Shown piece by piece: positions 8,365 through 10,575 of a stretch of DNA of 64,000 nucleotides. The position numbers and the translations under genes are program-made. The notes below the pieces were generated by a model. That model searched no databases. It saw only the letters and a program-made list of their open reading frames with translations, and was not told the DNA's origin. Source of the DNA: Simplicispira metamorpha (GTDB taxonomy: Bacteria; Pseudomonadota; Gammaproteobacteria; Burkholderiales; Burkholderiaceae_C); the NCBI RefSeq assembly GCF_004341365.1, contig NZ_SLXH01000011.1, positions 1 to 64,000 of the forward strand, in the 5' to 3' direction. Within the stretch, counting starts at the first letter, position 1. The number at the start of each line of letters is the position of its first letter.

Positions 8365-10575
8365 TCAGCGCTGCCCCCGCCAGCGCCGCAGCCGCAGTCC
8401 GTTGGCCACCACCAGTAGGCTGGCGCCCATGTCGGCCAGCACGGCCATCCACAGCGTGGCGCTGCCCGCCAGTGCCAGACCAAAAAACAGCACCTTGACC
8501 CCCAGTGCAAAGGCAATGTTCTGCCACAGCACGCGGTGGGTGCGGCGTGACAGGCCCACGGTGTCTGCCACGCGGCGCAGGTCATCGCTCATCAGCACGA
8601 CGGTGGCGGTTTCCATGGCCATGCCGGTGCTGCCGTTGCCGCCCATGGCAAAGCCGATGTCGGCGCGCGCCAGGGCCGGGGCGTCGTTGATGCCATCGCC
8701 CACCATGGCGGTGGCACCCAGGCGTTGCTGCATCTCTGCCAGTGCGTTGAGTTTGTCTTCGGGCAACAGGGCGCCACGGGCCTCCAGAATGCCTGCCTCG
8801 CGCGCGATGGCTTGCACGGTGGCCAGGTTGTCACCGCTCAACACCACCGTGGTGATGCCCAGGGCCTGCAACTGCGCAATCGCCTCGGGGGCGTGGGCGC
8901 GCAGGGTATCGGCCACGGCAAACAGGGCGCGCACGCCGTGGGCATCGGCCAGCAGGGTGACGCTGCGGCCTTGCTCGGCGTGCTGCGCCAGTGCCGCTTC
9001 CAGGGCGGGGCTGGATTGGCCGCGCTCTTGTACCAGGCGCAGGTTGCCCAGTACCAGCGGCTGGCCGTTGATGTGGCCTTGCACGCCCCGGCCAGGCAGG
9101 GCGGTGAAGTGCTCTACGGCATCGGCTGACAGGGTGGGCGCGGTGTGGCGGGCGGCGGCGCTGCCAGCGCCGGCTTGCAGTGCCTGGGCAATGGCGCGGG
9201 AGACGGGGTGGTCAGAGCGCGCTGCCAGCAGCAGCGCTGCTTGGGCCGTTGCGGTGTGCTGCGTGGCCGATGCCGCACCTTCGGGCCAGGTCTGCCAGGC
9301 CACCAGTGTGGGCTGGCCGTGCGTGAGGGTGCCGGTTTTGTCCAACGCCACGGCGCGCAGGTGGCGGGCGGCCTCCAGTGCGCTGCCGCCTTTGATGAGG
9401 ATGCCGTGGCGCGCTGCCGCCGTGAGTGCGCTGACCACCGTGACGGGTGTGGCAATCACCAGCGCGCAGGGGCAGGCCATCACCAGCAGCACCAGCGCCT
9501 GGTAGAGCGCATCGCGCCAGCCCCAGTCCAGCAGCAGCGGCGCGCCCACGGCCAGCGCCACGGCCAGCACCAGCACGGTGGGGGTGTAGAGGGCGGCAAA
9601 GCGGTCGATGAAGCGCTGGGTGGGGGCGCGGCTGACCTGGGCCTGTTCGACGGCGTGGACGATGCGGTCCAGCGTGGTCTGGCCGGCTGCCGAGGTCACG
9701 CGCATGTCCAGCTCGCCCGTGGTGTTGATGCTGCCAGCGTACAGCGGCTTGCCCGGGCCTTTGTCGGCCAGGGCGCTCTCGCCGGTGATGGGCGCCTGGT
9801 TGACGGCGCTGTGGCCGCGCGTGATGGTGCCGTCCAGCGGCACGCGCGCACCGGGGGCGATGCGCACGGTGGCGCCCAGGGGCACGCTGCGCGCGGGCAC
9901 ACGCTGGAATTGGCCGTCGCTGCCCTGCATGTCTGCGCTGTCGGGTGCCAGGGCCAGCAGCTGGCGGATGGCGTGGCGGGCGCGGTCCATGGCGCCGTCC
10001 TCGATGCGCTCGGCGGCCACGTACAGGGCCATCACCATCGCCGCCTCGGGCCACTGGCCGATCAGGAAGGCGCCTGTCACGGCCACTGCCATCAGGGCGT
10101 GGATGCCCAGGCGCAGGCGCGCCAGATCACGCAGGCCCGAGCGGTAAATGCCCAGGCCCGACAGGGCAATGGCCGCCGCAGCCAGCGCCATGCCTGCCGC
10201 TTGCCAGGTGTGGCCTGCGGGGGCGAACAGGTGCCACAGCTCGGCCAGCAGCGCCAGGGCCAGGGCCGCGCCCACGCGCGCCCAGCCGGGCAGGGCGCCG
10301 TGGTCGTGGCCAGCGTGGTTGCCATCGTCCGCACCGTGCCCGTCGCCATCGCTGTGGCTGCTGCCATGGCTGCAACCACAGCCAGCGGGGGCACAGGCGC
10401 TGGCCACAGGCGCGGGCGTGCGGTGGTCGTGGTCGTGGTCGTGGTCGTGGTCGTGGTCGTGGTCGTGGTCGTGGTCGTGGGGCGGATGGGCTGCCAATGG
10501 CGCAGGCGGTGTGGGTGGCAAGGCCGTGCCTTGGGCGCCGGGCAGGGGCCAGCGGGAGTGGGGTGTGGAGTTCAT
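8365..10575 (-). CDS. Heavy-metal-translocating P-type ATPase (Zn/Cd/Pb type)
   Basis: This 736-residue P1B-type ATPase has the CPC membrane motif (C368-P369-C370), the phosphorylated Asp412 in DKTGTLTHG, and the hinge GDGINDAPALARADIGFAMG. It should export Zn(II), Cd(II) or Pb(II) across the inner membrane. The usual N-terminal GMxCxxC metal-binding domain is absent. Instead, the first roughly 100 residues are unstructured and rich in His, with a His-Asp repeat at residues 33-51 and a Cys cluster (CAPAGCGC), and further HD/GHDHG segments follow. It is divergent from a CadR-type regulator, which fits metal induction. The ATG at 10575 is the only start consistent with the upstream stop codon. 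Confidence 0.93.
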   Translation of the reverse strand: MNSTPHSRWPLPGAQGTALPPTPPAPLAAHPPHDHDHDHDHDHDHDHDHDHRTPAPVASACAPAGCGCSHGSSHSDGDGHGADDGNHAGHDHGALPGWARVGAALALALLAELWHLFAPAGHTWQAAGMALAAAAIALSGLGIYRSGLRDLARLRLGIHALMAVAVTGAFLIGQWPEAAMVMALYVAAERIEDGAMDRARHAIRQLLALAPDSADMQGSDGQFQRVPARSVPLGATVRIAPGARVPLDGTITRGHSAVNQAPITGESALADKGPGKPLYAGSINTTGELDMRVTSAAGQTTLDRIVHAVEQAQVSRAPTQRFIDRFAALYTPTVLVLAVALAVGAPLLLDWGWRDALYQALVLLVMACPCALVIATPVTVVSALTAAARHGILIKGGSALEAARHLRAVALDKTGTLTHGQPTLVAWQTWPEGAASATQHTATAQAALLLAARSDHPVSRAIAQALQAGAGSAAARHTAPTLSADAVEHFTALPGRGVQGHINGQPLVLGNLRLVQERGQSSPALEAALAQHAEQGRSVTLLADAHGVRALFAVADTLRAHAPEAIAQLQALGITTVVLSGDNLATVQAIAREAGILEARGALLPEDKLNALAEMQQRLGATAMVGDGINDAPALARADIGFAMGGNGSTGMAMETATVVLMSDDLRRVADTVGLSRRTHRVLWQNIAFALGVKVLFFGLALAGSATLWMAVLADMGASLLVVANGLRLRRWRGQR
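10423..10480. repeat. Hexanucleotide tandem repeat (GTGGTC) encoding a His-Asp tract
   Basis: Nine perfect head-to-tail copies of GTGGTC (10423-10476) plus a partial copy are read on the minus strand as ten His alternating with nine Asp in the metal ATPase. Six-base units change length in frame. Confidence 0.95.

Follow-up and report, generated by a model that had tools for sequence, protein, structure and literature searches.

The gene for a Zn/Cd-type P1B-2 ATPase of Simplicispira metamorpha contains a perfect hexanucleotide array in the part encoding the N-terminal tail of the pump. We estimate a probability of roughly 70% for the following reading: the array lies in the tail of a His-rich pump that lacks an HMA domain and is under CadR-type control, the tail serves as a metal-binding arm, and its core was produced by slippage from a CACGAC seed. 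The locus is part of the window, which is the whole stretch of 64,000 nucleotides analyzed here (contig NZ_SLXH01000011.1, positions 1 to 64,000). The pump gene is as follows:

8365–10575, minus strand: cadA/zntA-type P1B-2 heavy-metal ATPase of 736 aa, assigned from Pfam, NCBIfam, solved relatives, conserved residues and fold.

The only Pfam models that match the pump are E1-E2_ATPase and the HAD-type Hydrolase. The NCBIfam models TIGR01525 and TIGR01512 (cadmium subfamily) score above their cut-offs; the ZntA models NF033775 and NF008262 also match the pump, but under theirs. Among solved structures, 7qbz and the zinc pump 4umv come nearest in sequence. We take 4umv and 4umw to be ShZntA, and 7qbz, a cadmium-translocating ATPase, to be sCoaT. 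The AlphaFold model of the pump matches P1B structures and adopts the P-type ATPase fold. C368-P-C370, K694 and D715 are invariant across 31 aligned sequences, and K694 and D715 align with the Lys and Asp of 4umv. Presumably, the CPC motif and the Lys and Asp in the last two core helices are the P1B-2 ligands. Judged from its sequence, the protein is a P1B-2 Zn/Cd(/Pb) export ATPase with putative transport activity, as it has the E1-E2 ATPase and HAD domains, DKTGT, CPC, and the Lys and Asp residues. The first-pass annotation had called it a Zn/Cd-type ATPase, and the Pfam and NCBIfam matches and the nearest solved structures agree with this. P0003 (7394–8314), which by eye had seemed a UvrC-like nuclease, showed no Pfam match at 1e-4, and the idea was dropped.

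Two features define the region ahead of the core:

10300–10575, minus strand: N-terminal tail, residues 1–92, His-rich, without an HMA domain and predicted to be unfolded.
10372–10395, minus strand: short Cys cluster CAPAGCGC, tail residues 61–68, recognized from sequence.

No HMA domain was matched by Pfam in the pump at E values up to 0.1, and nothing was matched N-terminal of residue 209. The pump thus lacks the N-terminal HMA domain that characterizes ZntA-type pumps. The AlphaFold2 pLDDT is below 50 over residues 1–92, and a GHDHGALPGW segment of the tail stands directly ahead of the first helix. The alignments with 4umv and 7qbz begin at query residues 134 and 79, respectively, so that the HD array is outside the aligned part. 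The earlier proposals of a missing metal-binding domain and of a His-rich, unstructured N-terminus are therefore both upheld, the latter as a prediction. The tail is not His-Asp alone, because it also carries the short Cys cluster.

The core of the tail is encoded by the array:

10423–10480, minus strand: perfect GTGGTC/CACGAC hexamer array of 9.67 units (58 bp), coding for (HD)9H, residues 33–51.

Tandem Repeats Finder reports this array with a period of 6, 9.7 copies, 100% matches, the consensus GTGGTC and a score of 116, the top score among its 21 rows in the window. On the minus strand the unit reads CAC GAC, which places H33–H51 in the ORF 8365–10575; the perfect His-Asp-coding array described in the first pass was thus found again. 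Being a perfect short tandem repeat inside a coding region, it is a simple-sequence-repeat locus. Four exact GTGGTC units occur at one place in the 3.78-Mb genome, which is this array (6 overlapping matches). Codon bias alone would give the all-CAC/GAC spelling of its 19 codons with a P of about 0.001, as estimated from 15 hand-picked ORFs of the window, some of which are unproven as genes, or of about 0.014 with the codon use of the pump gene itself. Because of these values, the purity of spelling by itself is modest evidence in the array of the window. An antisense ORF on the plus strand (9145–10755), whose Val run mirrors the array, was rejected as a gene candidate. Elsewhere in the window, at 17165–17198, 3.8 perfect units of the 9-bp repeat TGGGGGCGA form an apparently intergenic array. 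The same genome has a second hexamer array of similar length, CAGCAC at G000:C10:363-422 (L179), in a protein that by eye resembles SSB. Since this array codes for an Ala-Pro linker, metal proteins are not the only ones to carry long in-frame hexamer arrays.

The pump gene is preceded by a divergent regulator gene and a candidate promoter:

10616–11077, plus strand: divergent MerR-family regulator, CadR/PbrR-like, with Pfam MerR_1 and MerR-DNA-bind.
10582–10612, minus strand: predicted MerR/CadR-type promoter of the pump, with -35 TTGACC, a 19-bp spacer containing a dyad, and -10 TTCAAT.

The best NCBIfam model for the regulator is TIGR02047 (CadR-PbrR), at 113.6 bits and below the cut-off of 151.45. 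The locus has the two components of a cad divergon, namely a divergent MerR-family gene and a predicted operator-promoter with a 19/20-bp spacer; PMC1526738, in the part available, describes both this spacer rule and the cadR-cadA divergon. Of 22 loci inspected by eye, the window's own among them, all except L014 and L064 have a similar operator-promoter site close to the start (20 loci). The pump ATG lies 6 nt past the predicted -10 box (10573–10612), which would leave the message with almost no leader. By eye, this distance leaves no room for a Shine-Dalgarno site, which might mean that translation starts downstream and that the repeat is an untranslated element of the 5′ leader. However, the ATG is at an equal distance from the operator in L008, L037 and L039, whose tails, read in that frame, are rich in His, and there is no later ATG ahead of the first helix of the core. 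We therefore regard an untranslated array as extremely improbable and treat it as part of the protein.

To place the tail among its relatives, a tree of 97 related pumps was built without the N-terminus, with 13 weaker loci (L022–L032, L035 and L036) left out. The nearest named pumps on it are from Comamonadaceae. The HMA pattern is absent in 15 of the 97 loci, and its distribution requires 2 changes on the tree versus a mean of 14.2 after shuffling. All but one of the 15 form a single branch (14 loci; SH-aLRT 89, not starred); the remaining locus, L064, stands apart on a long branch. Among 399 genomes of the family, 67 gave a match at 1e-225, and the top 30 of these 67, the window's own included, were read. 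All 29 top-scoring foreign homologues lack the HMA pattern, and no HD run in them exceeds 3 units. A short Cys cluster is present by eye in 28 of the 29 tails (not in L233), with differing spacing such as CSSC, CGSC, CAPC and CGACC. One match among the 37 outside the 30 that were read, L015 of G008, has an HMA domain, and the pump L157 of G160, read to the contig end, is HMA-less with 4 units and a half. These comparisons indicate that the HMA-less, His-rich pump type is common in the family and that the HMA-less His/Cys tail predates the array. Because these 29 HMA-less relatives have no long array, the array is a late elaboration in the S. metamorpha genome.

The earlier suggestion that the array replaces the metal-binding domain did not survive this comparison. 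The pump itself does combine an array with the absence of HMA, as would be expected if HD repeats had specifically taken the place of a lost HMA domain. However, the 29 homologues have neither the HMA pattern nor a long array, whereas HD arrays are found alongside HMA in L065, L087, L100 and L113. The relatives thus contradict such a substitution, and we consider it very improbable.

The tail of the window has 19 His residues and those of the 29 relatives have 5–23, counted over an open frame of at most 150 residues preceding the core, which may include codons ahead of the true start. L216, L232 and L240 reach 19–23 tail His with HD runs of no more than 3 units. That no homologue among the 29 exceeds 3 units and that the 19 His fall inside the range of the relatives both favor an explanation in which the His-rich tail is useful while the array is a neutral microsatellite, namely a slippage product of a GC-rich CACGAC seed whose exact length is without effect on metal handling. 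We give this explanation even odds (further evidence is discussed below). Another tandem unit was observed in the same tail of the Variovorax boronicumulans pump (L043), which has three-residue HDR/HDH repeats.

Pumps of other genera are the closer relatives of the pump: they reach 72% identity and a best score of 918 bits, compared with no more than 66% and 814 bits for pumps in the 25 other genomes of its own genus that were searched. Horizontal transfer or differential loss may explain this. No long HD array was found in any pump locus inspected in these 25 genomes. A search of plasmids for near relatives gave no close copies, with a best identity of 62.5% over residues 144–735 among the matches listed. 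Two Cupriavidus metallidurans plasmid records, possibly of the same strain, share an identical N-terminus that is His-rich and has HMA but no long HD array. Of two further plasmid pumps, L120 combines HMA with a short HD run, and L119 has neither.

Evidence for slippage comes from the spelling and the length of comparable arrays. The synonymous hexamer differs by pump but is uniform within an array: CACGAC in the window, CATGAC in L065 and CACGAT in L087. In L065, 14 of 14 His codons of the array are CAT, although the rest of the gene uses 71% CAC. Mixed codons are seen in the 12 units of L100 and in the other His-rich runs of the pumps compared. Uniform arrays whose hexamer differs by pump are expected under local expansion of a seed and are hard to obtain from codon preference.

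The genus of L113 (Burkholderia anthina) offers a length series. The pump was found in 59 of its 61 genomes (60 matches), and 59 loci of 58 genomes were read, L121–L150 and L186–L214 among them; the match in G076, which is without the N-terminus, was left out. One of the 59, L214, is the second copy of a single genome and is more distant (74%); the L208 match holds two stops. These pumps are about 55% identical to that of the window, have HMA and were compared between species. The slot ahead of their Cys pair holds 0–13 CACGAC-type HD units, with 0–2 units in 15 of the 59 loci. Arrays of at least 4 units occur in 42 loci, and 41 of these are pure CACGAC; in the 44 loci with at least 3 units, 342 of 343 hexamers are CACGAC. 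When 42 arrays were simulated with codon frequencies from the cores of 30 Burkholderia loci (CAC 0.72, GAC 0.82), the number of pure arrays averaged 1.49 and reached a maximum of 6 in 2000 draws. His-Ala runs occupy the same slot in L124, L191 and L210, so other His-X units also expand there.

Among 710 Burkholderia pairs of equal core length, 95 have at least 95% core DNA identity, and the unit number differs in 85 of them. For example, L106 and L143 have 4 and 9 units, respectively, at 98.6% core identity. The loci are not independent, and these pair figures are therefore a description and not the basis of a P-value. Because the comparison is between species, slippage is not separated from recombination or unequal exchange. 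On the basis of this whole-unit variation, arrays of the type seen in the window, whose species is represented by one genome, are likely to undergo in-frame slippage, which favors the two-residue steps proposed in the first pass.

The Burkholderia series can be read in two further ways. The wide variation of array length among close species is in line with a length that is neutral. On the other hand, whole-unit, in-frame variation at a conserved position, together with the recurrence of arrays in metal proteins, would also fit an evolvable tuning knob, in which a repeat number under selection would determine the threshold for metal buffering or for activation of the pump and slippage would supply heritable variants. 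The 29 closest homologues that were read do without a long array, and we think such selection on repeat number unlikely.

We also surveyed CACGAC arrays in other genes of the family. The exact four-unit pattern, counted in this spelling alone, occurs in 19 of 200 genomes, the window's own included, versus 43 of 200 (counted from the list) for the control hexamer CAGCAC, which is CACGAC in reverse order. Hexamer arrays as such are therefore common in the family. One CACGAC array was read in each of the 18 other genomes, with the genes named by Pfam, and 12 of the 18 are in metal-linked proteins:

CDF exporters: L163 and L168.
ZIP: L158, and L162 with 15 perfect CACGAC units.
HypB/CobW GTPases: L155, L156, L166 and L167.
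UreE: L154.
CbiX: L151.
TonB receptor: L161, with a probable metal link.
P1B ATPase: L157.
Outside recognized metal proteins (6 of 18): LD-carboxypeptidase L152, cupin L164 and L165, which has a weak dioxygenase match.
Without a Pfam match, within these six: L153 (probably in a Thr-Thr frame), L159 and L160.

The occurrence of hexamer arrays in unrelated genes, as in the Ala-Pro linker of the same genome, and the greater number of family genomes with the control hexamer are consistent with a neutral length. The concentration of exact CACGAC arrays in metal-linked proteins argues against it, as does the recurrence of HD or HA arrays in the pump tail in separate lineages; pre-existing HDH seeds could also explain both observations.

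His-rich tails of CadA pumps are already published for Rubrivivax and Pseudomonas, and the array of the window adds a further case. According to the available part of PMC7283390, Rubrivivax gelatinosus CadA contains 14 His and 7 acidic residues within a stretch of 30 and neighbors cadR; it is required for Cd and full Zn tolerance, and HisProbe detects it via the His stretch. Both this CadA and the pump of the window are Cd/Zn P1B ATPases of Burkholderiales in which an N-terminal stretch of His and acidic residues is accompanied by Cys motifs, and a cadR or CadR-like gene lies beside each. The Rubrivivax stretch, compared here by its description, differs in having two flanking CxxxC motifs, and no tandem array is described for it in that part of the paper. 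Pseudomonas aeruginosa CadA, as presented in the available part of PMC10393844, is likewise a Zn/Cd ATPase with a long His-rich tail and is controlled by CadR. Unlike the pump of the window, all Pseudomonas loci among the 97, which do not include P. aeruginosa, have the HMA pattern, and long HD arrays are present in only two of them, L087 (pure) and L100 (mixed).

Enrichment of His and Asp in low-complexity regions of prokaryotic metal proteins, with slippage named as a source, is reported in PMC6821194, and HD runs of COG0523 proteins are tabulated in PMC2770081. In the parts of these two papers available to us, the stretches are likewise metal-linked, and neither P1B ATPases nor variation in HD repeat number are treated. 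The closest parallel for length variation is a coding 6-bp repeat of Erwinia amylovora, which, according to the available part of PMC10587187, has 3–15 units between strains and changes length in two-residue steps; it codes for Asn-Asn in a methyltransferase, unlike the His-Asp of the window. For B. pseudomallei, the part of PMC1853098 available discusses coding repeats with units that are multiples of three, and the terms ATPase, metal and histidine are all absent from the main text of that paper on tandem repeats. In the open literature on repeat variation, HD arrays and Burkholderia repeats, no length-variable HD array in a P1B ATPase appeared among the matches listed, as judged from titles and the beginnings of abstracts.

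In the mechanism that we favor, expression of the pump would be under CadR-type control, and the tail would be a flexible, low-affinity metal-binding arm, probably facing the cytoplasm. The His/Asp ligands of the arm, together with the Cys cluster, would most likely bind Zn/Cd and either raise the local supply to the transport site or regulate that site. In plant HMA4, a His stretch added no high-affinity zinc binding, according to the available part of a review (PMC10654040). Slippage would have expanded a short CACGAC seed into the (HD)9H core within this lineage, where hexamers are expected to go on being gained and lost in frame.

His-rich tails of metal transporters are common, and their function is poorly defined. 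Pumps that are nearly identical and whose ligand number steps by whole repeats constitute a natural length series, in which added ligands might provide buffering, faster delivery, or nothing. Since repeat number in related pumps shifts readily among close species, it is a plausible candidate means of varying metal binding, and the series in Burkholderia makes this hypothesis more interesting than the single window would suggest. A wider reading, which we judge doubtful, is that His-rich tails of bacterial metal proteins repeatedly contain hexanucleotide microsatellites that act as evolvable tuning knobs, with the gain and loss of HD pairs by slippage rapidly adjusting the capacity or activation threshold of Zn/Cd pumps. 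If so, the (HD)9 tail would be one example and the Burkholderia pump with its 0–13 units the best-documented one. If length mattered, changes in repeat number would allow metal tolerance to shift reversibly and at a high rate while function is kept.
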